DNA of 64,000 bases from Chlorobiaceae bacterium (lineage in GTDB: Bacteria > Bacteroidota > Ignavibacteria > Ignavibacteriales > Ignavibacteriaceae): the NCBI GenBank assembly GCA_013824085.1, contig PNNF01000008.1, positions 1 to 64,000 on the forward strand, in the 5' to 3' direction. The position numbers were made by a program, and so were the translations under genes. The notes below the pieces were generated by a model. It was not told the origin of the DNA and ran no database searches. It was given only the letters and a program-made list of their open reading frames with translations. Shown piece by piece: positions 23,584 through 64,000 of this stretch (within the stretch, counting starts at the first letter, position 1; each line of letters starts with the position of its first letter).

Positions 23584-23611
23584 AATACTATTTCATGAGC
23601 CGAAAAACTTA

Positions 23612-23860: not shown

Positions 23861-24426
23861 AGTAACCTCGAAAATGATTAAATAACACACGAGCATTTTT
23901 GCTCTTAACAAAGATACACTTAATCTTTCGTTTTTCCTATTAATATAATTATCTTTCGAGTTGCTAAAATAATCCCTAATGTAACTGATGCTTTAGTCAA
24001 TAATTATTAATTCCAATAATTATTATGATTATCATTTATACAGAGTCTAAATTTGCTTTATTCCCTGTGAACTAATTATTTTCAATCTTCTATTTAAAAG
24101 TTCGATTATTTTATTTTGCAATAAAATTATTTTAGATCCAAATTACTCCAATAATAATTTTTAAAATTATTATTTGCTTTATTCTATTCTTCGTGACTTT
24201 GCAGTAAAATGATTTTTAAGTGAATTACATTTTCCACGAACAAAATGTCAATGGGGACTGATGAGTTGAAAATAAAAAAAATGATCTCAAAAAAGAGGAT
24301 AGAACTCAATTATGATTTTCTAAAAAAAACAAACTGAATAATTTCAGGAGAAGACAAAACACTAACTCTGGATTCAATGATCCAAAATTAAGGTAAATGT
24401 TTATTCCAACAGAGAAATGTTGAATT
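23861..24426 (-). other. Long AT-rich leader region upstream of RRM copy 1
   Basis: About 570 bp without a credible gene. The first 25 bp upstream of the TTG (minus strand) are shared almost exactly with RRM copy 2. The rest is extremely AT-rich with repeated AATAATTATT runs. It may hold a long 5' leader, as in cold-shock RRM and csp genes, or simply be decayed sequence; sequence alone does not decide. Confidence 0.4.
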
Positions 24427-24455
24427 AAAAAAAAGGCGTTCTAAAAAAGAACGCC
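24427..24455 (-). terminator. Rho-independent terminator of RRM copy 2
   Basis: Perfect 7-bp stem GGCGTTC (24435-24441) with GAACGCC (24449-24455), followed on the minus strand by eight U at 24434-24427. It is strong and sits 27 bp after the stop of the gene at 24482-24733. It shares the GGCGTT stem with the hairpin of copy 1, so the terminator was probably duplicated with the gene. Confidence 0.9.
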
Positions 24456-24481
24456 CAAACTGATCAATTTAAGCCAATCAA

Positions 24482-24733
24482 TTATGATTTAGGCTTAGCT
24501 TCACTAACTACTATCGCACGACCATTCATTTCTGAACCGTTTAGCGATTTAATAGCGTTTGATGCATCAGAATCAGATTCCATTTCTACGAATCCAAAAC
24601 CTCTTGATTTACCGGTTTGACGGTCTGTTACTACTTTTGCAGATACAACTTTACCAAAAGCTGCAAATGTTTCTTTTAAAGAATCGTCTGTAGTTGACCA
24701 AGGAAGACTTCCAACGAACAATTTAGTACTCAA
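24482..24733 (-). CDS. RNA-recognition-motif protein, copy 2 (TTG start)
   Basis: This 83-residue protein is one RRM domain: RNP2 KLFVGSLPW, RNP1 KSRGFGFVEM. It matches copy 1 over most of its length, differing mainly in the helix-2 and C-terminal parts (AIKSLNGSEMNGRAIVV against AIQALNGAQLNGRSIIV). The TTG at 24733 is taken as start because CGAGGTTATT precedes it in both copies; the upstream ATG at 24769 would add a non-family tail. Probably an RNA chaperone acting at low temperature. Each copy has its own terminator, so they are separate units. Confidence 0.9.
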   Translation of the reverse strand: MSTKLFVGSLPWSTTDDSLKETFAAFGKVVSAKVVTDRQTGKSRGFGFVEMESDSDASNAIKSLNGSEMNGRAIVVSEAKPKS

Positions 24734-25026
24734 AATAACCTCGAAAATGATTAAATAACACAATGGCATTTTTGCCTATAGAAATATAAGGCAATTATTT
24801 CAGATAGCAAAAAAGAATTTTTATTTTTTTTTGATTAATCTTCTATTAAATCTATACCACTTTATATTTTTTGCAACCGAAGTTACATTTTTTTAATGAA
24901 AAGTTTTGGTTTGAGAAGTTGAGAAATATTTTTCTCATTGTGTTAGAAGTGTTTTTTTTGTATAATTTTTTTTAGAAAAAAATTAGTTGAAATATTATTT
25001 AAAAATAAATTCGCTATAATTTTTTT

Positions 25027-49270: not shown

Positions 49271-50651
49271 ACTTAGCATAAATTTTGTGACTAACTACAA
49301 TTTCCCCTTTATCATCAACGATTTCTAAGATTGCGAAATCTTTTTCTTCATAAAAAAATCTTACTCTGCCATAAGCATATCCATCTCCAGCATAGCTTCC
49401 TTTATTCCAAATTTTTAATCCTTCGTTGCTCATTCGTTGGTCAAGCTTGGAATTTCTAACATCAAGATTTGCAGAACTAATTTCTGGAAAAATAGAATTT
49501 GTTCCATCATCAATGTAAGATGAATGAGAATCGCCGGTAACAAAAATTACATTTTGAATATCATTCTCTTTAATAGTTCTTGTTACGAATTGAAGATCCT
49601 CAGGAAAACCCGCCCACTTGTCAACAGCATCATTTGTAATCCATCGAAATTTATTTTTGAGCGAATCATTATCAAACACTTCGATATATCGTTGATTAAA
49701 AATAACTGATGAGACAATTACTTTCCATTTTGCAGTAGAATTTTTTAATGACTCTGCTAACCAATCTCGCTGATTTTGTCCGGTTATTTCAAATCCCGCC
49801 AATATTGAATGTCCTTTAGGTGGAGAAAATTTACCTCGTCTCACACTCACGGTATCATTAATATTTCTTTGTGAGCGCAGATCGAGCACAAAAAACTCTA
49901 CATCACCAAACTGAAATTTTTGCCAAATGCCATTGTCGGGATTTGCGAGTGGATAATGAGGAAATAATTTTTTATAAATTTCAATCGTGTTGGCTTTTGC
50001 TTTGTCGGTGCCATCGGGATTGTTAGCGGCAAAATCGTGATCATCATAAGTATAAGCAATTGGAGTTTTTGAAAGGATCAAACTTCCGAAAGGATAATCA
50101 TAAGAGTAACGAGAATCAAAAGCTTTTGCAAGCAAATCTTTTCTTTCGTTGAAGCGATAGTTCCATCTTCTTTCAGTCGTGTCGGGATAAGTCCAATCTC
50201 CCAATTGTAAAAATAATCTCAAAGAATCTTTCGCCATAACTGGAAAAATTGTTGGCTGCCATTGCGAATAACCTGATTGTTGACAAGCGCCAAAGCCAAA
50301 AGAAAAATTTGTTCTCTTCTCTTTGGGAAAAGTTTTGAACGAGTGAATTTTCCAATCAGGTGTGCCATCAACTATTGCACGATAATAATATTTTTTATTG
50401 GGGACAAGATTGGATTGATAAATTTTTGTATAAAAAAATACTGAGTCAGTAGATTGAATAAGAGTTTTTTTTGAATACTTAAAATCTTGCGTAAAAGAAT
50501 ATTCGATTTCTGCTTCTTGAACTCCAAATGTTTTTAATACAAAGACAGCTGAAGTTTCAGTTACTCCACCAACAAACGGACCATACTCTACTTGTGCAAA
50601 GTTAAGAGTAGTCAATAAAATGAAGACCAAAGTCGCACTAGTTAATTTCAT
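49269..50651 (-). CDS. PhoD-like metallophosphatase
   Basis: Exported phosphatase of 460 residues. A signal peptide (about 1-19) is followed by a fibronectin-like N-terminal domain (about 20-110, GPFVGGVTETSAVFVL) and the metallophosphatase domain. Metal ligands are in FGFGACQQSGYSQ, FLQLGDWTYPDTT and AYTYDDHDFAANNPDG, and in the late 'VTGDSHSSYIDDG'. This is the PhoD/alkaline phosphatase D layout. It probably releases phosphate from esters in the periplasm. No pho box was identified. Confidence 0.92.
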   Translation of the reverse strand: MKLTSATLVFILLTTLNFAQVEYGPFVGGVTETSAVFVLKTFGVQEAEIEYSFTQDFKYSKKTLIQSTDSVFFYTKIYQSNLVPNKKYYYRAIVDGTPDWKIHSFKTFPKEKRTNFSFGFGACQQSGYSQWQPTIFPVMAKDSLRLFLQLGDWTYPDTTERRWNYRFNERKDLLAKAFDSRYSYDYPFGSLILSKTPIAYTYDDHDFAANNPDGTDKAKANTIEIYKKLFPHYPLANPDNGIWQKFQFGDVEFFVLDLRSQRNINDTVSVRRGKFSPPKGHSILAGFEITGQNQRDWLAESLKNSTAKWKVIVSSVIFNQRYIEVFDNDSLKNKFRWITNDAVDKWAGFPEDLQFVTRTIKENDIQNVIFVTGDSHSSYIDDGTNSIFPEISSANLDVRNSKLDQRMSNEGLKIWNKGSYAGDGYAYGRVRFFYEEKDFAILEIVDDKGEIVVSHKIYAK

Positions 50652-50728
50652 AAAAATAATCCCATTTCTTTATTTTGTTAACCCAAAATTAATTAATTAA
50701 GATTAAGTTATCATTAAATTTTCGCGCT

Positions 50729-50815
50729 ATGATGAATAATAAATTTAAAGTAATTCTCTTCGATCTTGGGAATGTTCTGATTACTTTTAGTTGTGATGTT
50801 GCAATTGAAGGATAA
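50729..50815 (+). pseudogene. N-terminal fragment of a HAD-superfamily hydrolase
   Basis: A 28-codon open stretch encodes KVILFDLGNVLITF, the DxGN/DxDxT-like motif I at the start of many HAD hydrolases. It ends at a TAA after SCDVAIEG. The other HAD motifs do not follow; an IS-type transposase remnant begins at the next base. It is most likely a truncated gene left after an insertion. It is too short to be a working enzyme. Confidence 0.6.
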
Positions 50816-51197
50816 ATGCAAGAAAGAAAAAACTCGGTGAGAATTTTTAGATTTTTTCAGAAAGAATTATTTAGACATTCAGTAATAAGCCGAATAATAT
50901 TCCCATTGAGTAAACTAAGGAGTTGTGAATACTTGAGGAGTTAAGAAACCTTGATATTGAGGTCGATCAAATGCATCGACACTTAGTCAAACTTAAGCGA
51001 GAAAAAAAACAAACAGTCCGACAAATAATTTTTAATCAGCACTTCAATTATTCGAGGGTGAATTAACACTAGCCTTTTATGATGTTACAACACTTTATTT
51101 TGAAGCTTCCGAAGAAGATGAATTTCGTATAGGAGTATTTTCAAAAGAAGGAAAGAATCAAAGTCCGAAGATAATATTAGGATTGTTGGTAAGATAG
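50816..51197 (+). pseudogene. Degenerate IS1634-like transposase remnant
   Basis: Two frames together spell parts of an IS1634-family (IS4-like DDE) transposase. Frame 1 from 50816 gives 'RHSVISRIIFPLSKLRSCEY' then a stop. A shift at 50941 gives 'LDIEVDQMHRHLVKLKREKK' and 'TVRQIIFNQ'. A second shift near 51040 gives LAFYDVTTLYFEASEEDEF with the first catalytic Asp (51082-51084 region), then FSKEGKNQSPKIILGLLV and a stop at 51195-51197. No terminal inverted repeats or target duplication were seen. It is a broken, short leftover, not a mobile element that can move. Confidence 0.8.
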
Positions 51198-51250
51198 TAA
51201 CAACTCAAATAATATTCCACAGTATTTCCTCTTCATCTGATTACTGTTTA

Positions 51251-51294
51251 ATCTAAAAGGATTAGTTCCTTTTTCATCCCTTTGTCCGATTTAC
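51251..51294 (+). promoter_or_regulatory. Conserved upstream element, copy 1
   Basis: Repeat related to copies at 57256, 59523 and 63265. It reads TCTAAAAGGATTAGTTCC then a T-run, CATCCCTTTG and CGATTTAC. It ends 73 bp before the start of the DUF3494 lipoprotein gene. It is probably a promoter or operator. Two GGAT/ATCC half-sites flank the T-run. Confidence 0.65.
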
Positions 51295-51367
51295 ACTAAC
51301 ACAGTCGCTGTCTATCTTAATGCCAGATATTAATTAAAATCATGTTAACAAAAGGAGTTACTTTGTT

Positions 51368-54300
51368 ATGAACAAAATAAAAAACAAATATACAATCTGG
51401 TTTTTTCCATTGCTGCTATTTATGATAATGACAGGCTGCGATGATAGAATCGGGATCACCTCTCCACCTGCTATCACAATACCAACAGTGAGCAGCACGA
51501 ATCCAAGTAACGCAGCGATAGGTGTTCCTTTTAACCAGAGTGTTACAGCAACATTCAGCGAAGTAATGGATTCTGCAACCATTACAACCGCATCATTTAC
51601 TCTTATGCAAGGCTCATCATTTGTATCAGGTACAGTATCTTACATAGGTACAACTGCTATATTTGCACCGTCAAGTTTTCTCGCACCAAATACTCACTAT
51701 ACAGCAACGATAACCACTATGGCTCGGAGTTTTGCTGGTAGTGGATTGGCAAACAACTATGTCTGGAGCTTTACGACAGGTTTAGTAGCTGCTATAACGC
51801 CACCCACGATAACTTCAACGGATCCGGCTAATGCTGCTACAGGTGTTTCACTCAATCAAAAAATTGCAGCCTCCTTCAGTGTGCCAATGGATGCTACAAC
51901 GATTACAGCTTCGACATTTACTTTACTACAAGGTATAACGCCAATATCAGGCTTTGTTTCCTATTCAGGTACAACAGCAATTTTTGCACCGTCAAGTAAT
52001 CTTGCACCAAATACCGCATACACTGCCACGATTACAACCGGCGCTAAAAACTTGGCAGGCAATGCAATAGTGAGTAACTACAATTGGAGTTTTACAACAG
52101 GCGCAGCAGTAGTCATTACTCGGCCTTCTGTAACTTTCACAGACCCCGCTAATCTTGCAACAGGCGTGGCTTTGAATCAAAAAGTAGTAGCAACATTTAG
52201 TAAGACTATGGATGCCACAACAATTACAGCGGCAACATTTACCTTGAATCAAGGTACAACTCCTGTTGCAGGTTTTGTCTCCTATTCAGGTACAACAGCA
52301 ATTTTTTCACCCGCAAGCAACTTATTACCGAACACATTATACACAGCCACTATTACAACCGGGGCTAAGGATTTGACAGGCAATACTCTGGCAACTAATT
52401 ATGTTTGGAGCTTTACAACAGGCGCATTAATTGTCGTTACGCCACCAACAGTAAGTTCTACAGATCCTATTAATGCCGCAACAGGTGTGGTGTTGAATCA
52501 GAACGTTATCGCAACCTTTAGTAAAACAATGGATGCTTCAACTATTACGACAGCAACATTTACCCTTATGCAAGGAACTACATTTGTTTCTGGAACCGTA
52601 AGTTATTTAGGTACAACTGCAATTTATAATCCATCAACTAATCTTGCGCCAAATACCGTATATACAGCCACGATTACAACTGGGACTAAGGATTTGGCAG
52701 GCAACGCTCTGGTAAGTAACTATGTTTGGAATTTTACAACAGGTGCAGGAGTGATAGTCACTCCACCGATAGTAAGTTCTACAGATCCTGCTAATCTTGC
52801 GACAGGTGTTGCATTGAATCAGAGAGTAGCAGCAACCTTTAGTAAGACTATGGATGCTTCAACTATTACTTCAGCAACATTTACATTGAATCAAGGTGCA
52901 AATTCAATTTCTGGCTTTGTGTCATATACAGGTTTAACAGCTACTTTTGCACCGGCAAGCAACCTATTACCGAACACATTATATACAGCTACGATTACAA
53001 CCGGAGCTAGAGACTTGGCTGGCAATGCTCTGGTAAATAATTATGTCTGGACATTTACAACAGGAGCGGCAGTGGTTATCACTCCGCCAACAGTAATTTC
53101 AACAGACCCTGCTAATCTTGCAACAGGTGTTGCATTGAATCAGAGAGTAGCAGCAACCTTTAGTAAAACAATGGATGCTTCAACTATTACTACAGCAACA
53201 TTTACATTGAGACAAGGCACAACTTCAGTTTCAGGCTTCGTCTCTTATACAGGTTTAACTGCCACTTTTACACCAGCAAGCAACCTATTGCCAAGTACAT
53301 TATATACTGCCACGATTACAACCGGGGCTAGAGACTTAGCAGGCAATGCTCTGGTAAGTAACCATGTATGGACTTTTACAACAGGAGCGGCAGTGGTTAT
53401 CACTCCGCCAACAGTAATCTTAACAGACCCAGTTAATCTTGCAACAGGCGTGGCTTTGAACAAACAAATTACCGCAACCTTTAGCAAGACAATGGATGCT
53501 TCGACCATTACCACAGCAACATTTACATTAATGCAAGGTATCTCATTTGTGTCCGGCACTGTTAGCTATGTTGGTACGACAGCAACTTTTATACCGTCCA
53601 GTAATCTTGTGCCTAACACTTTATACACAGCCACGATTACAACCGGTGCTCGGGACTTAACAGGTACTGCAATGACAAGCAACTTTGTTTGGAGCTTCAC
53701 AACCGCTGTTCCAACTTTTACAGTGTCGCTCTCATCAAATCCGGCTGCAGGCGGAACTACAAGTGGAGCAGGTACATTTAATTCAGGCTCTTTAGTAACT
53801 GTAAACGCAACAGCAAATGCTGGATATTCATTTACTAACTGGACAGAAGGCGCGACTATCGTCTCTACAAATGCAAGTTATATCTTCACAATTAGTGAAA
53901 ACAGAACATTAGTAGCCAACTTTACAACACTTCCATCTGGTCCGGCTGGCGTAGATCTTGGGTCTGCAGGTAACTTTGCCATTCTGGCTGGTTCTGGAGT
54001 CTCCAATATCGGTCTTACTATAATTTATGGCGATGTCGGATCGTTTCCAACTTCCACTATTAATGGATTCCCTCCCGGAGTTGTGGTTGGAACGCTTTAT
54101 ATGACAGCTAATCCTATAGTAGGGCTAGCAAAAACCGATTTGACTACTGCTTTTAACGACGCCCAAAGTAGATCATTAAATGCTATCTCATTGCCAGGTC
54201 AATTAGGTGGTTTAACCCTCGCCCCTGGACTCTATGTTAACTCATCAACCAGTGGTATATCAGGAACTGGACCAAACGCAATTTTAACTCTTGATGCAGG

Positions 54301-54571
54301 AGGCAACCCAAATGCAGTATGGATATTTAAGATGGGATCCACGCTCGTAACTAGTTCCAACACTAGTATTGTTCTAGCCGGTGGTGCACAATGGCAAAAC
54401 ATCTATTGGTCGGTTGGTACTTCAGCAACACTTGGAACTAACTCCATCTTTTATGGAAATATTCTGGCTGATCAATCCATTACACTAACTACTGGTGCAA
54501 CATTGCGCGGTAGAGCATTGACACGGATTGCTGCAGTAACATTAGAAGCTAATATTGTAGATAAACGATAA
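51368..54571 (+). CDS. Surface lipoprotein: seven Ig-like repeats, InlB-type repeat, DUF3494 ice-binding-like domain
   Basis: This 1067-residue protein has lipobox IMTGC (Cys24), so it is a lipoprotein. Seven SbsA-type Ig-like (Big_5) repeats of 107 residues follow (about residues 41-789). Each carries the NxATGVxLNQ and SKTMDA segments and ends in VWSFTTG. Next is a divergent InlB B-repeat type domain (about 790-860, GTTSGAGTFNSGS, 'NAGYSFTNWTEG'). The C-terminal DUF3494 domain (about 865-1067) has LGSAGNFAILAGSGVSN, PNAVWIFKMGSTL and 'GGAQWQNIYWSVG'. DUF3494 is the fold of many bacterial ice-binding proteins, but members in non-polar bacteria may act as adhesins. It is predicted to be an exposed stalk with a DUF3494 tip. 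The start is preceded by AAAGGAG. Confidence 0.93.
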   Translation: MNKIKNKYTIWFFPLLLFMIMTGCDDRIGITSPPAITIPTVSSTNPSNAAIGVPFNQSVTATFSEVMDSATITTASFTLMQGSSFVSGTVSYIGTTAIFAPSSFLAPNTHYTATITTMARSFAGSGLANNYVWSFTTGLVAAITPPTITSTDPANAATGVSLNQKIAASFSVPMDATTITASTFTLLQGITPISGFVSYSGTTAIFAPSSNLAPNTAYTATITTGAKNLAGNAIVSNYNWSFTTGAAVVITRPSVTFTDPANLATGVALNQKVVATFSKTMDATTITAATFTLNQGTTPVAGFVSYSGTTAIFSPASNLLPNTLYTATITTGAKDLTGNTLATNYVWSFTTGALIVVTPPTVSSTDPINAATGVVLNQNVIATFSKTMDASTITTATFTLMQGTTFVSGTVSYLGTTAIYNPSTNLAPNTVYTATITTGTKDLAGNALVSNYVWNFTTGAGVIVTPPIVSSTDPANLATGVALNQRVAATFSKTMDASTITSATFTLNQGANSISGFVSYTGLTATFAPASNLLPNTLYTATITTGARDLAGNALVNNYVWTFTTGAAVVITPPTVISTDPANLATGVALNQRVAATFSKTMDASTITTATFTLRQGTTSVSGFVSYTGLTATFTPASNLLPSTLYTATITTGARDLAGNALVSNHVWTFTTGAAVVITPPTVILTDPVNLATGVALNKQITATFSKTMDASTITTATFTLMQGISFVSGTVSYVGTTATFIPSSNLVPNTLYTATITTGARDLTGTAMTSNFVWSFTTAVPTFTVSLSSNPAAGGTTSGAGTFNSGSLVTVNATANAGYSFTNWTEGATIVSTNASYIFTISENRTLVANFTTLPSGPAGVDLGSAGNFAILAGSGVSNIGLTIIYGDVGSFPTSTINGFPPGVVVGTLYMTANPIVGLAKTDLTTAFNDAQSRSLNAISLPGQLGGLTLAPGLYVNSSTSGISGTGPNAILTLDAGGNPNAVWIFKMGSTLVTSSNTSIVLAGGAQWQNIYWSVGTSATLGTNSIFYGNILADQSITLTTGATLRGRALTRIAAVTLEANIVDKR
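51488..53734 (+). repeat. Seven tandem in-frame repeats of exactly 321 bp
   Basis: Repeat units start at 51488, 51809, 52130, 52451, 52772, 53093 and 53414. Every spacing is exactly 321 bp (107 codons) with no indels. Units 5 and 6 are the most alike at nucleotide level, suggesting recent duplication, while unit 1 is the most diverged. Each encodes one Ig-like domain of the lipoprotein. Confidence 0.95.
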
Positions 54572-54588
54572 AATAAATTAGAAAAAAA

Positions 54589-54616
54589 TAGTGAGGAGGA
54601 TTTTAACTCCTCACTA
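54589..54616 (+). terminator. Terminator after the Ig/DUF3494 gene
   Basis: A 10-bp stem TAGTGAGGAG (54589-54598) with CTCCTCACTA (54607-54616) followed by CATTTTT. It lies 17 bp after the stop codon. Confidence 0.85.
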
Positions 54617-54699
54617 CATTTTTCACGATGAATGAACAAAGAACAGAACTGAAATAAATAAAGTTAAATAGGAATTCAAAAAAAAATAGGAAACATGAA

Positions 54700-55809
54700 A
54701 TGAAAAAATTTTTAATAACGCTTGCATTGATGTTGTTTGTTAACATTGGTGTTTCTCAAGCACAAGCAGTAACAGATAGCTGGACGTTTGGATTCGGTGC
54801 AAGTTACCCCAGATTTTACTCAGCAAATATAACCTCGTTAAATTCTAATTACGGCGCATATCTTTCAGTCCAACGCAATTTTTCAGAGCATGTTGGATTA
54901 AGACTTAGAGGAGGCTATGCACACCTTGAAGGAGAATGGACAGATGCAGCTTTTACCCTAATTACAACAGAGACAAACTTTTTTACAGCAGATCTTGATT
55001 TAGTTTATTATCCCGTTCCCTGCGCACCGGTTTCGCCCTATCTTTTTGCAGGAATTGGCGGACATTACAAATCTCTAACTAATAAACAAACTCCATTTTC
55101 TGATGATAGCAAATTCGGATCTCAATTAAACCTTGGTATTGGTGCCGATTTCAAAATTAGTTCGCGTTGGAGTTTCATCACAGAGTTCGGTTATCATCAA
55201 ACCAACAACTCAGAGCTTGATGGCGCTATTATCACTGATGTTACGAAAGAAGTGAACGGACGCGATTCTTATATAGTGCTTAGTCTTGGTTTCAATTATT
55301 TCTTCCACAAAGGTGAGACCTCAGAAATTTGTGAGCCTTGCCCTGGATTGCGAGTGGATATGAAAGATATGACAGACTATAACAAAATCGAGGAGATGAT
55401 TAAGAAGCACATTCCTAAAGAAGTAATCAAAGAAGTTGTTGTCGATAAATATATTTTAGCTATCTCGGAAGATAGATTGGTTCTGGTTGGTGTTAATTTT
55501 GCATTCGATAAATCAGACCTTTTACCTGAATCATACTATGTACTTGATAAAAGCGTAACTTTGCTGAATGATAATCCTGGTATTAATGTTGAGATTGAAG
55601 GATATACTGATGGTATCGGCACTCCTGAATACAACTACCAACTTTCATTGGAAAGAGCTAATACAGTTAAAAATTATCTTGTGTCAAAAGGAATTGCGGA
55701 AAACAGACTTTCAACTATCGGTTTCGGTGAAGGGAATCCGGCTGCAACCAACGAGACAGAAGAAGGCAGAGCAATGAATAGAAGAATTGTGTTTAGAATT
55801 ATTAAATAA
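54700..55809 (+). CDS. OmpA-family outer-membrane protein
   Basis: This 369-residue protein has a signal peptide (about 1-23). An N-terminal eight-strand-like beta-barrel (about 25-205) starts WTFGFGASYPRFY and ends IVLSLGFNYFF. A linker with two cysteines (SEICEPCPGL) leads to a C-terminal OmpA peptidoglycan-binding domain (about 250-369). Its motifs are VNFAFDKSDLLPESYYV and EIEGYTDGIGTPEYNYQLSL, followed by the RANTVKNYLVSKGI helix. It ties the outer membrane to peptidoglycan. It is flanked by hairpins on both sides, so it is its own unit. Confidence 0.94.
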   Translation: MKKFLITLALMLFVNIGVSQAQAVTDSWTFGFGASYPRFYSANITSLNSNYGAYLSVQRNFSEHVGLRLRGGYAHLEGEWTDAAFTLITTETNFFTADLDLVYYPVPCAPVSPYLFAGIGGHYKSLTNKQTPFSDDSKFGSQLNLGIGADFKISSRWSFITEFGYHQTNNSELDGAIITDVTKEVNGRDSYIVLSLGFNYFFHKGETSEICEPCPGLRVDMKDMTDYNKIEEMIKKHIPKEVIKEVVVDKYILAISEDRLVLVGVNFAFDKSDLLPESYYVLDKSVTLLNDNPGINVEIEGYTDGIGTPEYNYQLSLERANTVKNYLVSKGIAENRLSTIGFGEGNPAATNETEEGRAMNRRIVFRIIK

Positions 55810-55829
55810 AAAAACTTAGAAGTACGAAT

Positions 55830-55856
55830 GTCCCTGTATCTTAAAGCTACAGGGAC
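55830..55856 (+). terminator. Hairpin after the OmpA gene
   Basis: A 9-bp stem GTCCCTGTA (55830-55838) with TACAGGGAC (55848-55856), 20 bp past the stop. The tail TTCAATAAG is a poor U-tract, so termination may be partial. Confidence 0.65.
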
Positions 55857-55895
55857 TTCAATAAGCTAAAACGATATATCTAAAAGGAATTACAA

Positions 55896-56081
55896 ATGAA
55901 CAAGTTAAATATAAAAGGAAACTGGAACGAACTTGCAGGCAAGCTTAAACAAAAATTTGCCAACCTGACAGACGATGACTTGCTCTTCAAAGAGGGCAAA
56001 GAGGAAGAACTGTGGGGAAGACTTCAGCAGAAGCTTGGGAAAACCAAAGAACAAATACGCAAGCTAATTGCGAAATTATAA
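55896..56081 (+). CDS. CsbD-family stress protein
   Basis: This 61-residue protein matches the CsbD family: [17 protein letters not shown], then [18 protein letters not shown] and '[14 protein letters not shown]'. CsbD is a general-stress (sigma-B-controlled) protein in Bacillus subtilis, and it is widespread and small, with unknown biochemistry. AAAAGGAATT precedes the ATG. Two decayed copies of the same gene lie at 56937-57120 and 62942-63119. It precedes the DUF4382-like gene by 49 bp and may be co-transcribed. Confidence 0.92.
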
Positions 56082-56130
56082 CAAAATGTAGTTAATACTA
56101 CAATCATTTTACAAAGAAAGTTGTTAAATA

Positions 56131-56808
56131 ATGAAATTATCCATTTATCTTCTTCTTTTATTTATTTCTGTAAACTTGCTCACCGGATGTTCGGATAGCA
56201 CGAATAATCCCCAGGCTGGAGAAAACATCTCCGTAGCATTGGCTTTTGACAAGGGACTAAATAAAACTGGAAGTGACCCAATAGTTTTGGATTCCGTAAA
56301 AATATTACTCAAAGATATTAAATTCAGGCAAGCCGTCGGCGATTCATCAAATGTAAAAGTCGGACCAATGGTTGTGCACTTGAATTTGAATGGCGTTCCA
56401 ACAGAATTTGCAGCTGGTTTGGTTATTGCTGGCAATTATTCCAAGATTAAATTTCGCTTGCATAAACCTGAAGAGAGCGATGTAATTCTTGATCCGGAAT
56501 TTATCGCGGGCTCCAGTGGAGATCTAAGATACTCCGTAATAGTTAAAGGAAGATTCAACGGTGTTCCGTTTATTTACAAGTCAACTAAGACGGCAACTCA
56601 AGAAGTGAATTTTAAAAATTCAATAAACATAACTGAAGATGTTAAAACTTTTGTCACCCTTTCGGTTGATGTTAATTCTTGGTTTTATAAGGATACTTTA
56701 GTCCTTGATCCCAATAATATCAGTAACAAAAACGATATTGACAATAACATAAAAGACTCTTTCAAAAAGGCTTTCCGCGACAATAATAAAGACGGTATTG
56801 CTGATTAA
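56131..56808 (+). CDS. DUF4382-like lipoprotein
   Basis: This 225-residue lipoprotein has lipobox NLLTGC (Cys20). The mature part has the beta-sandwich-like layout of DUF4382 proteins: VALAFDKGLNKTGSDPIV, 'SVKILLKDIKFRQAVG' and AAGLVIAGNYSKIKFRL. The C-terminus ends FRDNNKDGIAD, a calcium-loop-like acidic motif. Family assignment is by resemblance only. It is followed after 5 bp by a strong terminator. Confidence 0.65.
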   Translation: MKLSIYLLLLFISVNLLTGCSDSTNNPQAGENISVALAFDKGLNKTGSDPIVLDSVKILLKDIKFRQAVGDSSNVKVGPMVVHLNLNGVPTEFAAGLVIAGNYSKIKFRLHKPEESDVILDPEFIAGSSGDLRYSVIVKGRFNGVPFIYKSTKTATQEVNFKNSINITEDVKTFVTLSVDVNSWFYKDTLVLDPNNISNKNDIDNNIKDSFKKAFRDNNKDGIAD

Positions 56809-56813
56809 ATTTT

Positions 56814-56837
56814 AAGGCTTGACGAGAGTCAAGCCTT
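56814..56837 (+). terminator. Terminator after the DUF4382-like gene
   Basis: A 10-bp stem AAGGCTTGAC (56814-56823) with GTCAAGCCTT (56828-56837), loop GAGA, followed by TATTT. It ends the csbD unit. Confidence 0.9.
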
Positions 56838-56936
56838 TATTTCCATACTAACAAAGCTTCTGTTTCACTCTCGACAAGCAGTAAGAAACAATTTTGTTAA
56901 TATTAATCTTAATTGATTACCATAAAAGCAGTAGAA

Positions 56937-57120
56937 ATGGAAAAGAACAATCTCATAGAAAACTGGAACGACCTCTTCAACAAGCTTAAAAAAATATTTG
57001 CCGATTTACCAACCATAGCAGATTCTTCAACGATGTGGCTTGTGACGAATTGTGGGAAAATTCTCAGCCCAACCTTGAGAAAATAAAAAATAAAATCAGA
57101 TTCCTATCGAGCAATTTTAT
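56937..57120 (+). pseudogene. Decayed CsbD copy 1
   Basis: From the ATG at 56937, the first frame reads 'IENWNDLFNKLKKIFADL', matching the start of the CsbD gene at 55896. The reading frame then shifts: another frame gives DELWENSQPNLEKIKNKIRF, matching the CsbD C-terminal half. It therefore carries a frameshift and a lost middle. The sequence after it also matches the region following the copy at 62942, and it leads to the conserved element at 57256. It is not expected to make a working protein. Confidence 0.8.
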
Positions 57121-57255
57121 CAGCCTCATCTCTCTATGGTTAATGTTTTCGATATGACGAATCTATTAGTCTTGTTCTGATTAGTAAAAAAAAATATTGA
57201 GACACAAAGCAAAAAAATCTCTCTTGGAATAGATTTTTAGCAGATAAAAATTGCT

Positions 57256-57306
57256 CTCATCCTAAAGGATTAGTTCTTTTTTCATCCTATTAGGCGATTG
57301 ATTTAC
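57256..57306 (+). promoter_or_regulatory. Conserved upstream element, copy 2
   Basis: Contains ATCCTAAAGGATTAG, a T-run, CATCCTATTAGG and GATTGATTTAC. It ends 60 bp before the ATG at 57367 of the T9SS DUF3494 gene. Nearly identical to copy 3 at 63265. Confidence 0.75.
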
Positions 57307-57366
57307 ACCACACCTTCCCCTAAATTCCTTTCAGTTTTAAGAAACAAATATCTAAAGGAGATTATT

Positions 57367-58686
57367 ATGAATATTCAAACAATTAATTCAACAAGTGTAA
57401 TGAGCAAATGTATGCGATTTATCGGCGCGATGCTGATTGTAGCATTGATGATGCCTGCCATTGCTTTTTCACAACCATTTGCCAACCCGGAACCAGTACC
57501 ACTTTTAACTGCCGGAACTTATGGGGCTTTAGCTTACTCGGGGATAACCGGTAATGCAACTGTTCATGGAGATGTTGGAACATCAACTGCATCGATAGAC
57601 GTAAGCATAACAGTCACTGGAGGAATTAACAGGGGTGTGGGCACCGCTCATGTTATACAAGCCCAAACTGACTTGGGTGCCGCGTTGACCAATGCCAACG
57701 GTCGAGTAAATAATCAAACTATCAGCGGGAATGCGCTCGGTGGACTTACTTTAGGACGTGGTGTCTATGAAGGCGGTGCTCTTGATCTTGCATCGGGAAC
57801 GACTTTAACACTCAATGGAAGTGCAACCGATGTCTTCATCATAAGAGCTGCGTCTTCACTTAATATCAATACTAATAGCAACGTGACCTTAACCGGCGGC
57901 GCTGTGTGGTCAAACGTCTTTTGGTATGTCGGCAGTTCAGCGACTATTTTTAGTGGTGTAACTTTCAATGGAATCATACTCGCTGTTACATCAATCACGC
58001 TGAATGCCGACGCAACTCAGGTAACAGCAAAATTTTTGGCTAATGGTGGTGCGGTTACAATAAACTCCTCTGTATTACCGGTGGAATTAACATCTTTTAC
58101 AGCATCATTAAATAACAGTGCAGTAGTATTAAATTGGAGCACAGCTACAGAAGTAGATAACTTCGGATTTGATGTTGAAAGTAGATTTGTTAAGGAAGAT
58201 GAGAATGGAAGAAATGGCGAAAGAGGGCGTTTGAGTGAATGGAATAAGATCGGCTTTGTACACGGACATGGGAATAGTAATTCACCAAAAGAATATGCAT
58301 TTAAAGATAAAAATCCAGAAGTCGGAATATTACAATACAGATTAAAGCAGATTGATACTGACGGCGCTTTCGAATACTCGAAAACAGTAGAAGTTAATTT
58401 TAATGTACCATTATTTTTTGTTCTGTACCAAAACTATCCGAACCCTTTTAATCCCTCTACAAATATTCAATACACAATTGGGAATGCCGGTTTGGTAACA
58501 CTTAAAGTGTATAATCTTATTGGAAATGAAGTTGCTACTCTCGTAAACGCCCGGCAGGCAGCTGGAAGTTACTCAGTTCAGTTTTACGCGAGTGAAGAAA
58601 ATCTGAATTTTTCAAGTGGTGTCTATCTCTATCGTTTAGAATCAGGTTCTTTCGTCTCGACGAAGAAGTTTATCTTGATTAAGTAA
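57367..58686 (+). CDS. T9SS-secreted DUF3494 ice-binding-like protein
   Basis: Secreted surface protein of about 439 residues. I take the ATG at 57367 (MNIQTIN), which follows CTAAAGGAG. An upstream ATG at 57298 lies inside the conserved element and is unlikely. After a signal peptide (ending IAFSQP), a DUF3494 domain (about 38-235) shows GNATVHGDVGTSTAS, 'GGLTLGRGVYEGG' and GGAVWSNVFWYVGSSATI. A linker domain (VELTSFTASLNNSAVVLNWS) is typical of T9SS cargo. The C-terminal type A sorting domain carries QNYPNPFNPSTNIQY and ends GVYLYRL then KKFILIK. It is therefore exported by T9SS and attached or released at the cell surface. Confidence 0.93.
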   Translation: MNIQTINSTSVMSKCMRFIGAMLIVALMMPAIAFSQPFANPEPVPLLTAGTYGALAYSGITGNATVHGDVGTSTASIDVSITVTGGINRGVGTAHVIQAQTDLGAALTNANGRVNNQTISGNALGGLTLGRGVYEGGALDLASGTTLTLNGSATDVFIIRAASSLNINTNSNVTLTGGAVWSNVFWYVGSSATIFSGVTFNGIILAVTSITLNADATQVTAKFLANGGAVTINSSVLPVELTSFTASLNNSAVVLNWSTATEVDNFGFDVESRFVKEDENGRNGERGRLSEWNKIGFVHGHGNSNSPKEYAFKDKNPEVGILQYRLKQIDTDGAFEYSKTVEVNFNVPLFFVLYQNYPNPFNPSTNIQYTIGNAGLVTLKVYNLIGNEVATLVNARQAAGSYSVQFYASEENLNFSSGVYLYRLESGSFVSTKKFILIK

Positions 58687-58698
58687 ATAAGTAAATGC

Positions 58699-58736
58699 TA
58701 ACCTCAATCTCTTGGAAGACTGGGAGATTGAGGTTA
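58699..58736 (+). terminator. Long hairpin after the T9SS DUF3494 gene
   Basis: A 13-bp perfect stem TAACCTCAATCTC (58699-58711) with GAGATTGAGGTTA (58724-58736), 13 bp past the stop. It lacks a U-tract after it, so it may act as a transcript-end stabiliser as well as a weak terminator. Confidence 0.65.
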
Positions 58737-58876
58737 TGAAAAGGAAAAAATATTTTTTTGGTTGTTTGTTCTCATTCAATCAAAGAAATTATTGACTTCC
58801 CTTTCCACAAAAATTCTAGAAAAAATAGAATTGTTTTTATTTCAGTAGTCAATTAATAATTAAAAAAGGAGAGCAT

Positions 58877-59203
58877 ATGAAAAAAATATTTGTCGGTATT
58901 CTGACTTTAGTATTATTTGTTTTCATCTATGGTTGTGCCCGTAATACAGATCCTCAATTCAGTATCCGGAACGAACAGGCGAATAAAGTAGATGTAAAAA
59001 TACAAACCTCATTAGGGAATAAAATCACCATTAACGATGTCGAACCCGGACAAACTACGGCGTATCAAACTGCAACGGAAGGAAATATTACAGCGACAGA
59101 TGTTATTCGGAACGAGTCGGTATCATTCCTTGCTGAAAAAAATACTCGCTACACAATTGTCATTAGTGGAGACAAACCACCATCAGTGGCTGTTGATCAA
59201 TAA
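58877..59203 (+). CDS. Small lipoprotein, paralogue A
   Basis: This 108-residue lipoprotein has lipobox FIYGC (Cys20). The mature part is a beta-rich domain: DPQFSIRNEQANKVDVKIQ, 'NDVEPGQTTAYQTATEGNIT' and NESVSFLAEKNTRYTIVI. It is clearly paralogous to the protein at 61862-62200 (112 residues), sharing NDVxPGQxTA, EGNITAT and NESVS. Both have Cys20. No known domain; DUF4397-type sandwich proteins are similar in spirit. Strong ribosome-binding site AAAAAGGAGAG before the ATG. Confidence 0.82.
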   Translation: MKKIFVGILTLVLFVFIYGCARNTDPQFSIRNEQANKVDVKIQTSLGNKITINDVEPGQTTAYQTATEGNITATDVIRNESVSFLAEKNTRYTIVISGDKPPSVAVDQ

Positions 59204-59654
59204 CTGTGATGATGCAATAATGATAAGCCGACGCTTTATGCTGCGGTAAACAGCAATGAAAGATGTGAGATGGAAAATGGAGAAACCTAGTTCCAAATAT
59301 TTTTACTTACACAGCGCCAATGGTAACCCTGTAGCAGGTTGTTAAATCTGCAAGAGGCAGGCGAAAAAACAAAAAGCTACTTAACATTACAGTAGCGTTT
59401 GCCGAAGCCAATTTTTCTTTCACTTTAGTAATTCTAAAAAAGACTGTAAAGGTATTCACAATGATTAAGATACATTTAATTTCTCACTGTATCCTCGATT
59501 TCATCAGAGGGCTTTATCAACCAAAAGATGTAGTTCCCTTTTCAATCCTTTGCCCTATTTATCTTTCTTTTAATATTTTCTATATTTTGTTTGCAAATAA
59601 TAGACCATTGAAGCGTTTTCACATTTATCAAAACAAATTAAAAAGGCTGCACTA
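59204..59654. other. Non-coding stretch with a weak copy of the conserved element
   Basis: No convincing gene. An open stretch (59461-59655) has no family similarity and overlaps the regulatory repeat, so I reject it as a gene. A stem GCTACT (59376-59381) with AGTAGC (59391-59396) lies midway. The conserved element copy 4 is at 59523-59562. Confidence 0.5.
59523..59562 (+). promoter_or_regulatory. Conserved upstream element, copy 4 (diverged)
   Basis: Reads CAAAAGATGTAGTTCCC, then TTTTC, AATCCTTTG and CCCTATTTAT. It aligns best with copy 1, sharing TAGTTCC and CCTTTG with a pyrimidine-CC following. It ends 92 bp before the gene at 59655. This copy is the weakest of the four. Confidence 0.5.
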
Positions 59655-60446
59655 ATGAAACATATAAATCATACAATTACAGAGAGTATCGCAAAACTGA
59701 TTATCCGGTGGTTTCAATTTTCAGTTGTAATTATTGCGCTCACAATATCGATGAGCACACAATCGGTAGCGCAAATAAATTTTAAACTTGGCGGCGGTTT
59801 CGGAGTAATGAGTCCGGCTTCAGACTTAAGCGGCTCAACCATTGAATATTATAACGGCTCCAACTATGGACTCAGCAGTGGTCTTAACATTCATTTGAAA
59901 GGAAAGGTTGGGTTATTAGGCTTAAACCTCACTGGAGAAATTGATTACTCGTCGTTAAGTAACAGTGGAAATTCTGAAATAGGTGAAGGGAAAATTGATA
60001 TTTCGCAAAAAATTCTGTCGCTAAAATTGGGACCTGAATTTCGCCTAAGTTTACCTTTGTTGCCGATCGTTCCTTACATCGGCGCAAACCTCGCATTGAA
60101 TTCATTCACTGGTGAGACGACATTTCAAGGTGTTCCAAGAGTTCCGAGTGCAACATACAGCGTGAATGCTGCGACACGTATTGGTGTCGGATTCACAGCG
60201 GGAGCAGAAGTGAGCATAGGACCGTTACTAACGCTTGACTTTAATCTCTCGTATAACTTAATGAATGTTTCCGGTGCTGAATGGACAGATGTAAATCCGG
60301 AGATAAATCGCCGAGTTGATTCCTATCTTTCTTTGAATGACTTGCAAGACCCCCTTTATTCTGCTGGTGACGATAGTCATTTCGTTTCAAAGGCACGGAA
60401 TATTCACTCGGTACTGTTCAAGGTAAGTCTTTTGTTCGGTTTGTAG
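59655..60446 (+). CDS. Outer-membrane beta-barrel protein
   Basis: This 263-residue protein has an unusually long N-terminus before the signal-peptide core (about 25-40, ending SVAQINF), so translation might begin later. The mature part has alternating hydrophobic strands and a C-terminal aromatic SLLFGL. Examples are FKLGGGFGVMSPASDL, LKLGPEFRLSLPLLPIVPY and 'RIGVGFTAGAEVSIGPLL'. It lies downstream of conserved element copy 4. Probably a small barrel or porin; function unknown. Confidence 0.8.
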   Translation: MKHINHTITESIAKLIIRWFQFSVVIIALTISMSTQSVAQINFKLGGGFGVMSPASDLSGSTIEYYNGSNYGLSSGLNIHLKGKVGLLGLNLTGEIDYSSLSNSGNSEIGEGKIDISQKILSLKLGPEFRLSLPLLPIVPYIGANLALNSFTGETTFQGVPRVPSATYSVNAATRIGVGFTAGAEVSIGPLLTLDFNLSYNLMNVSGAEWTDVNPEINRRVDSYLSLNDLQDPLYSAGDDSHFVSKARNIHSVLFKVSLLFGL

Positions 60447-60531
60447 TATTTGAGATGTTATAATGAAACTCGCTCTGCTCGCTTGAAGGTTATGTAGAGG
60501 AGTAAAACACTAATTTAAGAAAGGTAATTTT

Positions 60532-61080
60532 ATGTTTAAGAATTTGATGATAATAATAGGAATAATTTTAATGATGCTTACCCAAGTGAATGCACAAAGC
60601 ATAAATCTAGGACCACAGATCGGTTATCAAAAAGCCAGGGATGCAGATGAAGGGAAATTTTTTGGTGGTGCAGCAATGCGGTTGAAGTTGACTCCGAATC
60701 TTGGCGTTGAAGCTTCCATTAATTATCGTGCGGAAGAATATTACGATGGCGCCTTGACAGTTAAGAGCTGGCCTGTAATGATAACTGGTTTATATTATCC
60801 AATCCCAATAGTTTATGGGGCAATTGGCGCAGGATGGTACAACACAACTTTCGATTTTGATCAGAGTAAGTTTCCGTTTCAGCTTGTTGCTGATGAAACC
60901 CAACAAAAATTTGGCTGGCATTTTGGCGGCGGTGTGGAGTTACCGATAGGTTCAAATTCAAAATTCACAGCAGATCTCCGATATGTTTTTATAGATTACG
61001 ACTTTAGCAGCATACCGGGTATTGGTGAAAAGAATAGCGATTTTTATCTCTTCTCCGTCGGTTTTCTTTTTGGTCTATAA
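60532..61080 (+). CDS. Small outer-membrane beta-barrel protein
   Basis: This 182-residue protein has a signal peptide (1-21, ending VNAQS) and an OmpW/OmpX-like barrel with strands such as INLGPQIGYQKARDADEGKF and FGWHFGGGVELPIG. It ends FYLFSVGFLFGL, the aromatic C-terminus recognised by BAM. AGAAAGGTAAT precedes the start. It is 27 bp upstream of the response regulator gene and may be co-transcribed with it. Confidence 0.85.
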   Translation: MFKNLMIIIGIILMMLTQVNAQSINLGPQIGYQKARDADEGKFFGGAAMRLKLTPNLGVEASINYRAEEYYDGALTVKSWPVMITGLYYPIPIVYGAIGAGWYNTTFDFDQSKFPFQLVADETQQKFGWHFGGGVELPIGSNSKFTADLRYVFIDYDFSSIPGIGEKNSDFYLFSVGFLFGL

Positions 61081-61107
61081 TTAATTTTAACGAGTATTAA
61101 AGTATTT

Positions 61108-61782
61108 ATGAAAAAAATCAGTTTGCTAATCATTGAGGACAATCGTCTTCTTAGGGATGGAATGCTTGCTATTCTCAAACCTCAAAAGGATATTGTTATT
61201 ATTGGGGCATCAGCAGACGCTAAGAGCACTCTTGCAAAAATTCAAGAGTTAAAACCTAATGTGGTTCTATTAGATTTGGGATTGCGAAGTCAGAACAGTT
61301 TGCACGTAGTGGAATTAGTGAAGAAAGAATTTCCAAAAGCAAAAATTATAATTATGGGGTTTGCCTCCGTTCAAGCCGATATCCTACAGTATGTGAAAGC
61401 AGGCGCAAATGGTTTTATCCTAAAAGATGCATCACTTAATGATTTATTAGTCACAATTCGAACTGTTGCCGATGGGTCAACTGTTCTTCCGCCTCCCTTG
61501 ATTGATTCCCTCTTTTCCAAAATTGTAGAACACGCAGTGAGAGAGGGTAAACCAAAACTGAAAGAGGCAGTCCGAATGACAAAGCGGGAACAAGAAGTTA
61601 TCGAGTTACTTGGTGAAGGAATGAGTAACAGAGAGATTGCTCAAAAAACTCTCATCTCCATCTATACGGTTAAAAGTCATATTCATAATATAATGGAGAA
61701 ACTTGCACTACACACGCGGTTGGAAATTGCAAAATATTCTTACGCTGATCAATCTCATAAAACAATTTCAAAGAGTATTTAG
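61108..61782 (+). CDS. LuxR/NarL-family response regulator (orphan)
   Basis: Transcription factor of 224 residues. The receiver (1-120) has acidic residues Glu10 and Asp11, phospho-acceptor Asp56 in VLLDLGLR, and Lys106 in FILKDAS. The usual Thr/Ser switch residue is replaced by Gly84 in IIIMGFAS. The LuxR HTH (about 160-220) reads TKREQEVIELLGEGMSNREI and 'SIYTVKSHIHNIMEKL'. No kinase gene is adjacent, so it is an orphan. It is located in the middle of the surface-protein island and is the best candidate to bind the repeated element. Confidence 0.93.
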   Translation: MKKISLLIIEDNRLLRDGMLAILKPQKDIVIIGASADAKSTLAKIQELKPNVVLLDLGLRSQNSLHVVELVKKEFPKAKIIIMGFASVQADILQYVKAGANGFILKDASLNDLLVTIRTVADGSTVLPPPLIDSLFSKIVEHAVREGKPKLKEAVRMTKREQEVIELLGEGMSNREIAQKTLISIYTVKSHIHNIMEKLALHTRLEIAKYSYADQSHKTISKSI

Positions 61783-61861
61783 ATGATCAATAATTAATTA
61801 ATCAATTACCGTTTCATTAAAAATAATTGAATGAAACAAAATAATCACTTAAGGAGAAAAG

Positions 61862-62200
61862 ATGAGAAATATAATTATCGGCATTCTTAGCTTGGTATTT
61901 ATGATTGCCATCACTGGTTGCACCGACAAAACAAACCCTAAATTCCGTGTCCTCAATGAACGATCAACTAAAGCTAATGTTCAGATTCAGACAACTGGTG
62001 GAAATACGATTAATCTTAACGACGTTCAACCCGGACAAGCAACGGCATTTCATTCTGCTGCAGAAGGAAATATTACCGCAACTGCTGTTATTCAAAATGA
62101 GTCTGTATCACCTACAATTACTTTCTTTGCGATATATGATGAGGAATATACAATCGTTATTCAAATGACCACTCCTCCGTCTCTTCGCGTAGATAGATAA
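61862..62200 (+). CDS. Small lipoprotein, paralogue B
   Basis: This 112-residue lipoprotein has lipobox AITGC (Cys20). The mature domain matches paralogue A (58877-59203): FRVLNERSTKANVQIQTTGG, NDVQPGQATAF, EGNITATAVIQNESVS. It lies 79 bp after the response regulator. A perfect 8-bp inverted repeat (GTTTCATT 61811-61818, AATGAAAC 61830-61837) stands upstream and could be an operator or the end of the regulator transcript. The function of the pair is unknown. Confidence 0.82.
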   Translation: MRNIIIGILSLVFMIAITGCTDKTNPKFRVLNERSTKANVQIQTTGGNTINLNDVQPGQATAFHSAAEGNITATAVIQNESVSPTITFFAIYDEEYTIVIQMTTPPSLRVDR

Positions 62201-62231
62201 CAAATATTTTGACAGGAGTAGGTGTGAAAAA

Positions 62232-62276
62232 TTAGCTTCGGAAGATTGAAAGTCTTACGAAGCTAATCAATTTTTT
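62232..62276 (+). terminator. Terminator after lipoprotein paralogue B
   Basis: A 9-bp perfect stem TTAGCTTCG (62232-62240) with CGAAGCTAA (62258-62266), then TCAATTTTTT. It is 32 bp after the stop. Confidence 0.85.
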
Positions 62277-62343
62277 AGATAATTGCTGTTCGTTCTTCTT
62301 TAAGTTGAATGTAACAGCAGATAATTAAATTAAGGAAAAAATT

Positions 62344-62868
62344 ATGCGTTACTTTATTGTTTTAGTCGCAGCTTTGTTACTCTTGAGCACATCAATTGCT
62401 CAAGTGCAAGTTAATGTTAACTTCAACTTGGACAGGCAACCAGTTTGGGGACCCACCGGTTATGATTATGTAGAATATTATTACTTGCCCGATATCGATG
62501 TTTACTACAATGTCCCGCTACAACGTTATTACTTTTATGACCAAGGAAGATGGATTTACAGGTCATCTCTGCCTTCACGTTTTGGTAACTTTAACTTCTT
62601 TAAAACTTATAAAGTAGTCGTGAATGAGCGCGAGCCCTGGCGCAATCATAAATCATACAAGAAAAAATATTACGCATACAAAGATCGTCACGACCAAAAA
62701 TCAATTCGAGATAGTCGGGATTCAAAATACTTTGTGAATAAAAATCATCCTGAACACAGTAGATGGATAAAGGAACAAAAGAATGATAAAGAAAATGCCA
62801 AAGGACAGAATCGTGATAAAAAAAATGACAACAAGAAAAAAGGCGGACAAGGTAATCAGAAAAAATAG
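62344..62868 (+). CDS. Secreted Tyr-rich protein with basic tail
   Basis: This 174-residue protein has a signal peptide (about 1-19, ending SIAQVQ). The mature N-terminal half is rich in Tyr and Phe: GYDYVEYYYLPDIDVYYN, 'QRYYFYDQGRWIYRSSLPS'. The last 60 residues are very basic and low in complexity, with many Lys, Asn, Asp and Gln. Similar short secreted proteins are common in Bacteroidota and Ignavibacteria but have no assigned function. The basic tail could bind nucleic acid or an acidic surface polymer; this is inference. Preceded by AAGGAAAAA. Confidence 0.8.
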   Translation: MRYFIVLVAALLLLSTSIAQVQVNVNFNLDRQPVWGPTGYDYVEYYYLPDIDVYYNVPLQRYYFYDQGRWIYRSSLPSRFGNFNFFKTYKVVVNEREPWRNHKSYKKKYYAYKDRHDQKSIRDSRDSKYFVNKNHPEHSRWIKEQKNDKENAKGQNRDKKNDNKKKGGQGNQKK

Positions 62869-62941
62869 TTTTGATTTAGATATTTTTATATCCCGATTAA
62901 AATCTTAATAGATAAACTTTCAAACTATAGCCGGTAAATTT

Positions 62942-63119
62942 GGACAGCACAATGTTAGTGAAAACTAGAACGAACTCTTGTGCCAGATTAAAAGAAATAT
63001 TTACCGGTTCACCAATCAATAAAATACTCTTCAAAGATTAAGTTAAGCCGAACTGTTGGGAAGTTCAAAACTGAAACTTGAGGAGAAAAAAAATCAGATT
63101 CATTTCGAGCAGTATTAAC
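62942..63119 (+). pseudogene. Decayed CsbD copy 2
   Basis: The nucleotide sequence aligns with the CsbD remnant at 56937. GTGAAAACTAGAACGAACTC corresponds to the 'ENWNEL' region, with the Trp codon changed to a TAG stop. Later in-frame stops occur, and the end (AAAAAATCAGATTCATTTCG) matches the shared 3' part. It has no open reading frame. It is followed by the spacer and the conserved element at 63265. Confidence 0.75.
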
Positions 63120-63264
63120 AGCCTCATCTGGTTCATGCTAATGTTTTTTACATGACACTTTGCATTAACTTCTTCTGATTTTAAATAACACAAAAAAGTA
63201 TGGGGAGACAATTCAAAAAAAAAGAATTCCTCTTGGCAATTATTTTTCGCAAAAACAAATTGTT

Positions 63265-63315
63265 CTAATCCTAAAGGATTAGTTCCTTTTTCATCCTATT
63301 AGGTGATTGATTTAC
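63265..63315 (+). promoter_or_regulatory. Conserved upstream element, copy 3
   Basis: Contains AATCCTAAAGGATTAG, CCTTTTTC, ATCCTATTAGG and GATTGATTTAC. It ends 72 bp before the ATG at 63388. AATCC-TAAA-GGATT is a short inverted repeat. This copy is nearly identical to copy 2. Confidence 0.75.
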
Positions 63316-63387
63316 CCCTCTCCTTTTTCATAGTTTAGGTTGTGTTCAAAAAAAGTTTACGAACTAATTAGTTAAGGAGGATCAGAA

Positions 63388-63927
63388 ATGGTTAGGATAA
63401 TTACCACACATAAAGTAGGGAGTTTCACAGTGGGAAGATCTGTTTTATTCGGTTTGGTTTTAGTGATGTTGATGATACTTACAAAACCACTTGGCGCACA
63501 GGACCGCGGATTTGGACTTGGATTTATTTTGGGAGAGCCAACGGGATTGAGTGCTAAACTCTGGACTTCACGAGTTAATGCTTTTGATTTCGGTCTTGGC
63601 TTGTCAGTTGGTGGCGACCGCATCTCAAACGGGCACCACTACGATGGTGACGGCCGCGTCCGTTTTCATATGGATTATCTATGGCACTCATTCAATGCAA
63701 TAAGTTCAACCGAAAGATTTCCAGTCTATTATGGAGTCGGTGGCAGGTTTAACAGTGGTGGGGGTTACGAGGCTTCACTTGGAGTAAGAGGCGTGATTGG
63801 TATAGTTTGGCTTCCACGAGATACCCCTATTGATATTTTTGTTGAGTTAGTGCCCGTGCTTCAACTTACGCCGGGGACTGGGTTTGGAATTGATGCAGGG
63901 CTGGGAATACGATATTTCTTCCAATAA
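63388..63927 (+). CDS. Outer-membrane protein
   Basis: This 179-residue protein begins after AAGGAGGATC. A signal-peptide core (about 18-38, ending KPLGAQD) is preceded by a longer basic N-terminus. The mature barrel starts GFGLGFILGEPTGLSAKLW and has YYGVGGRFNSGGGYEASLG, and the C-terminus is aromatic (GIRYFFQ). It resembles short outer-membrane proteins common in Bacteroidota and Spirochaetes-type sets; no substrate is known. It is controlled, by inference, through conserved element copy 3. Confidence 0.82.
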   Translation: MVRIITTHKVGSFTVGRSVLFGLVLVMLMILTKPLGAQDRGFGLGFILGEPTGLSAKLWTSRVNAFDFGLGLSVGGDRISNGHHYDGDGRVRFHMDYLWHSFNAISSTERFPVYYGVGGRFNSGGGYEASLGVRGVIGIVWLPRDTPIDIFVELVPVLQLTPGTGFGIDAGLGIRYFFQ

Positions 63928-63971
63928 GAGAAGAATATTTGTGCATAATTTTTTAAAAAAAGGATATTAAA

Positions 63972-64000
63972 ATGAAAATGTTTCTCTTTATTTCGCTGCT
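63972..64000 (+). CDS. Start of an exported protein gene, cut by the window edge
   Basis: ATG at 63972, preceded by AAAAGGATATTAAA, opens MKMFLFISLL, a typical signal-peptide start. Only nine full codons are visible. It lies 45 bp after the outer-membrane protein gene and is probably in the same transcript. Confidence 0.55.

Follow-up and report, generated by a model that had tools for sequence, protein, structure and literature searches.

A repeated unit of dead csbD, spacer and predicted regulon promoter ahead of two different genes in an Ignavibacteriaceae bacterium

Within the window, a 64,000-nucleotide stretch of contig PNNF01000008.1 from a Chlorobiaceae bacterium, two decayed copies of csbD precede two different genes, and each is followed by the same conserved element. 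How did one arrangement come to occupy both places, and which part of it has been kept? The sequence-only reading of this DNA proposed that a csbD-containing block was copied and that its promoter, not csbD, was retained in front of new surface genes. The two blocks, A (56937-57310) and B (62942-63318), are composed as follows.

56937-57122, + strand: block A csbD remnant, frameshifted (profile and alignment)
57123-57255, + strand: block A spacer, 82% identical to the block B spacer
57256-57303, + strand: block A activator box ending in the -35 (TTGATT, 57298-57303), predicted from sequence
62942-63120, + strand: block B csbD remnant (Trp codon TAG, start lost, frame breaks)
63121-63264, + strand: block B spacer
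63265-63312, + strand: block B activator box and -35 (TTGATT, 63307-63312), predicted from sequence

The blocks are homologous end to end. Their local alignment scores 193, compared with a mean of 39.6 (SD 5.1) and a maximum of 61.5 in 300 shuffles, and an independent BLAST search within the genome aligned them at 73% identity across bases 8 to 373 of 374 (E = 2e-50), which bears out the claimed alignment of about 370 bp. The csbD portion (92.5 versus a shuffle maximum of 34.5) and the spacer (38 versus 23) are each significant by themselves, so the similarity reaches well past the 50-bp element, contrary to the outcome that would have refuted the sequence-only reading. Identity between A and B is 0.747 in csbD, 0.820 in the spacer, and 0.936 in the element (box plus -35); 3' of the -35 it is 0.69 and then 0.62. 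Within the element, both blocks carry the derived bases TATTAGG where the consensus has CTTTGCC. No counterpart comparable across the full block was found among 80 family genomes.

One CsbD gene, and only one, is intact in the genome, at the place where the sequence-only reading had put it.

55896-56081, + strand: intact csbD, 61 aa (Pfam PF05532, 62.9 bits against a cut-off of 40)

Its protein is 93% identical to the products of the intact csbD genes of two relatives, G008 and G033. Both block copies are broken and fall under the PF05532 cut-off, and their reported death was confirmed. In copy A a frameshift splits the CsbD profile match between two frames (positions 1-24 and 24-55); in copy B the Trp codon reads TAG (AACTAG versus AACTGG), the ATG is lost, and additional frame breaks occur. 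The sequence CAGCCTCATCT is located immediately 3' of the former csbD stop codon position. A candidate hydrophobic C-terminal extension of CsbD in the remnants, in an open frame ending FLSSNFISLISLW, was rejected as read-through past that former stop codon.

Among the intact csbD genes of the window, G008, and G033, differences by codon position (7/0/21 and 2/2/25) lie chiefly at third positions. The differences between the A and B remnants are spread evenly (14/18/19); neither of the two dead copies evolves under codon constraint. Where the intact genes are invariant, A and B have 21 derived bases in common, 19 of them at codon positions 1 and 2, which indicates that csbD was already unconstrained in the A/B common ancestor, i.e., before copying. 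Since that ancestor, constraint appears in the element alone.

An alignment of 197 element copies resolves a box, CTCACCCAAAAGATGTAGTTCCTTTTTCATCCCTTTGCCCGA, followed by TTGA as the -35, 17 bp, and TAnnTT as the -10; a purine peak 7 nt beyond the -10 marks the predicted start. The box is ~42 bp long (about -77 to -36), abuts the -35, and holds the direct repeats TTCCTTTT/ATCCCTTT, 10-11 bp apart. In block A the -10 is TAAATT (57321-57326), with a predicted start near 57333; in block B it is TAGTTT (63331-63336), with a predicted start at about 63343. Across the 197 elements, the 17-bp separation of -35 and -10 and the upstream box abutting the -35 match the architecture of sigma70-type, activator-dependent promoters, and the element appears to be the activator-binding half of a regulon-wide promoter of this kind. 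The sequence-only reading implied a promoter owned by csbD, a notion that does not fit the blocks, where csbD stands upstream of the element and the element looks like a regulon-wide activator site. Elsewhere, at more than a dozen loci, an element precedes csbD by 108-125 nt.

Elements occur 60-130 nt 5' of start codons and agree in strand with the downstream genes. These encode CsbD, YtxH, dodecin, ferritin-like, DUF5670, KaiC-like, PAS kinase, ice-binding, and outer-membrane proteins, and they would be expected to respond to stress. A pattern search of 164 genomes from the order places the element in 49, with up to 37 copies per genome and often in same-strand clusters; a reversed-pattern control gave 2 hits in total. 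The single “element” of genome G063 looks like a chance match. Copies are also found in named Ignavibacteria, in Melioribacter and Stygiobacter, and in some Calditrichaeota, KSB1, and Bacteroidota metagenome-assembled genomes (MAGs), although some of the matches outside Ignavibacteria may be mis-binned and Calditrichaeota alone are used as support. The contig itself carries six elements, all on the + strand, within 19 kb (window 51263, 57271, 59531, and 63280; contig ~66620 and ~70195, coordinates above 64000 being 1 too high). Two of those in the window lie outside the blocks.

51248-51295, + strand: additional element, score 55.9, before the gene for an Ig-repeat and ice-binding protein (51368-54571)
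59516-59563, + strand: additional element, score 47.3, before a beta-barrel gene (59655-60446)

Within this ice-binding surface protein, seven tandem Ig-like (Big_5) repeats ~321 bp apart (51497-53703) are 68-74% identical. A ~550-bp direct repeat (window 50318-50874 and contig C8 ~72617-73157; 76-81% identical) flanks the entire regulon island. It spans the start of a HAD-hydrolase gene, the left copy being a gene remnant and the right copy belonging to an intact gene, and may be a trace of the insertion or duplication of the island.

What might bind the box? The same island encodes a candidate.

61108-61782, + strand: NarL/FixJ response regulator, candidate activator (PF00072, 62.6 bits; PF00196, GerE, 55.6 bits)

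A paralog at contig 69474 has the same receiver and GerE/LuxR helix-turn-helix make-up. Just after a second response regulator, beyond the window at contig C8 ~70402-72144, a two-domain KaiC-like ATPase is encoded behind a weak element, and a similar arrangement recurs in relatives. Regulator orthologs (E <= 1e-50) were found in 48 of 164 genomes, 42 of which are among the 49 element genomes (Fisher p = 3e-25, uncorrected for kinship), and in the six others the regulator contigs bear weaker elements. The recognition helix TYTVKSHxHNIxEKL is nearly constant among island regulators and different in unrelated paralogs. Its constancy extends to two regulators of a Calditrichaeota MAG, which have ~46% identity and are encoded about 170-190 nt before elements. 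These observations point to the NarL/FixJ family of the island (61108 and its paralog) as the likely activator. It could instead be that another activator binds the element and the response regulator is simply a regulon member, given that regulator genes are often behind elements themselves and that, regulator and element residing in the same islands, their co-occurrence could reflect co-inheritance. We consider this unlikely: the response regulator is the one DNA-binding gene seen to recur across the islands (a gene of LacI type occurs at two loci), its presence tracks the element almost 1:1, and its recognition helix is constant.

The origin of the two blocks can be approached through the genes around them and their relatives.

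57367-58686, + strand: ice-binding-like gene behind element A (PF11999), with a C-terminal sorting domain (PF18962)
62344-62868, + strand: upstream neighbor of block B, whose homolog precedes intact csbD in G008 and G033
63388-63927, + strand: gene behind element B, for a probable outer-membrane protein (weak PF13161, DUF3996)

The intact module that the sequence-only reading thought worth seeking in related genomes is found in G008 and G033, where csbD is intact 5' of the element. The order in G008 is the 62344 homolog, intact csbD, the element, and the 63388 homolog; G033 has the first three in the same order, and its contig ends before the next gene is readable. Block B keeps this gene order with a dead csbD. 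Homologs of the ice-binding gene (L129, L184, L196) stand behind elements without csbD, and 63388 homologs are likewise behind elements in relatives. The leader of block A best matches ice-binding-gene leaders (33, 25.5, and 22.5; mean 11.9, SD 3.1), and that of block B best matches the 63388-type leaders of G008 and G033 (29 and 24.5). Because its leader is of the ice-binding type and the elements before these ice-binding homologs lack csbD, block A looks chimeric, with a B-type upstream half and a native leader.

Taken as one whole, the locus is probably best explained by a repeated unit of dead csbD, spacer, and regulon promoter, in which B is ancestral and A is a B-type segment joined at the promoter. 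On this explanation csbD would have decayed in situ, flanked by gene 62344 and the element before gene 63388, the intact csbD staying at 55896. Most likely, a B-type segment then replaced what lay 5' of the leader native to the ice-binding gene, joining that leader at the shared promoter. Repeated elements could have done this by homologous recombination or by gene conversion, or an equivalent copying could have had the same result. With csbD already dead, selection would have acted on the element alone. Homology, decay, promoter architecture, recurrence, synteny, and leader matches are read directly from the compared sequences; we infer the recombination mechanism and the direction from B to A. 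The A-B junction is blurred by divergence, and the direction is weakened by a precedent in another MAG (L137), in which a homolog of lipoprotein 56131, the upstream neighbor of block A, precedes a csbD remnant and element. Between the blocks, the window has a further duplicated pair, 58855-59125 and 61840-62110, with small lipoprotein-like genes 58877/61862 and DNA 69% identical including the upstream sequence.

The proposal of a copied csbD block with its promoter kept stands insofar as the block is present twice, csbD was unconstrained before copying, and the promoter was retained; since block B is in its ancestral place, copying is needed for just one of the two sites. That the promoter was placed before “new” genes is contradicted by the relatives, in which homologs of 57367 and 63388 are already behind elements whose leaders match both window leaders. 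Quite unlikely, then, is the form of the proposal in which a csbD and promoter block was copied before promoter-less genes and thereby recruited them to a stress regulon: the repetition of the block ahead of different genes is real, and blocks of response regulator and element in another genome of the group, G076, precede several unrelated genes, but the leaders and the ancestral position of B oppose it. Still less probable, in our view, is parallel decay of A and B as old csbD-element pairs, with no recent copying. Such pairs do exist, with csbD (intact or remnant) 5' of the element in G008, G033, L101, and L137, and these islands commonly hold csbD paralogs; parallel decay is opposed by the shared derived bases in element and csbD, the similarity of the spacers, and the lack of a full-block counterpart in the family genomes.

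The preferred reading, copying of a unit joined at the promoter, raises the question of whether such events are general. Among 1110 same-genome element pairs (197 elements, 22 genomes), 20 share upstream flanks only. Flank similarity continues right up to the element in the window pair and likewise in PLLW (G076) and JALHTS. G076 has five blocks of a regulator paralog and an element, on contig C110 (L179, L181, L124) and at L145; they precede the main regulator gene (two copies), two different small membrane-protein genes, and one ice-binding gene. The regulator copies are broken or truncated in three of the five, with the elements intact. Homologous promoter segments thus precede non-homologous genes of one genome in window blocks A/B, the G076 blocks, and the JALHTS pair, the last at contig ends and counted as weak support. 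The G076 case is an independent parallel to the csbD case and supports copying of gene and promoter blocks with gene loss. The notion of “spreading a stress promoter” therefore survives in part, in that copying of a gene and promoter with only the promoter kept recurs independently in G076; the case for recruitment is weakened in the window, where both downstream genes have elements in relatives.

A broader reading, which we offer tentatively and at somewhat less than even chances, is that the operator serves as the recombination joint of the regulon island. Blocks of upstream gene and operator would be repeatedly swapped before other regulon genes, the hitchhiker dying and the operator being kept, so that the regulon rewires at its own binding site; the regulon would be a general stress network, so far undescribed, that a response regulator drives in Ignavibacteria and some neighboring phyla. 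Many copies per genome and a patchy distribution could also suggest a mobile repeat or RNA element instead of a promoter, which is highly improbable in view of the fixed -35/-10 spacing, the position 60-130 nt before start codons, the strand agreement, and the absence of an Rfam match at the elements (a search of 54000-64000 gave one chance mir-71 match, below cut-off and far from elements).

csbD and ytxH are known members of the Bacillus/Listeria Sigma-B general stress regulon, and EcfG-type promoters have the form GGAAC-N16-CGTT. Alternative sigma-factor promoters (sigma-B/EcfG) were not found among the 197 elements, whose consensus is TTGA-N17-TAnnTT with an activator box. The target families overlap those of the Sigma-B regulon (CsbD, YtxH, other small stress proteins), but the present elements combine a sigma70-like promoter with an upstream activator box and show no alternative sigma signature; csbD and ytxH are mentioned together in PMC7824861. 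The present system would share with the alphaproteobacterial EcfG/PhyR general stress response (PMC7083833) the character of a global stress regulon linked to a phosphorelay, although the EcfG promoter form is absent and a DNA-binding NarL-type regulator, not PhyR, is implicated. It resembles the NarL/FixJ response-regulator regulon DevR/DosR (PMC5069765) in having a LuxR-type regulator (here a candidate) over a stress or dormancy regulon, and differs in its targets and in a box of ~42 bp that is conserved across genera and built on 10-11-bp direct repeats. In the part of the literature searched, no earlier description of the regulon was found.

The closest known idea, as represented in PMC8049555, is promoter propagation by putative mobile promoters (Matus-Garcia et al. 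2012; van Passel et al. 2014, cited therein). As portrayed through that citing paper, the two share a promoter-bearing segment in several copies before non-homologous genes of one genome; they differ in that here a regulon operator has a dedicated candidate regulator, a decaying upstream gene is copied along, and the joint lies at the conserved promoter. Dead hitchhiker genes offer a readable fossil record of bacterial promoter copying, which is usually argued from sequence similarity alone, and motif, target list, and candidate regulator together define a regulon of stress type in organisms for which hardly any genetics exists. Elsewhere in the window, a 355-bp direct repeat (23550-23902 and 24425-24775) is 81% identical and has no long open frame.
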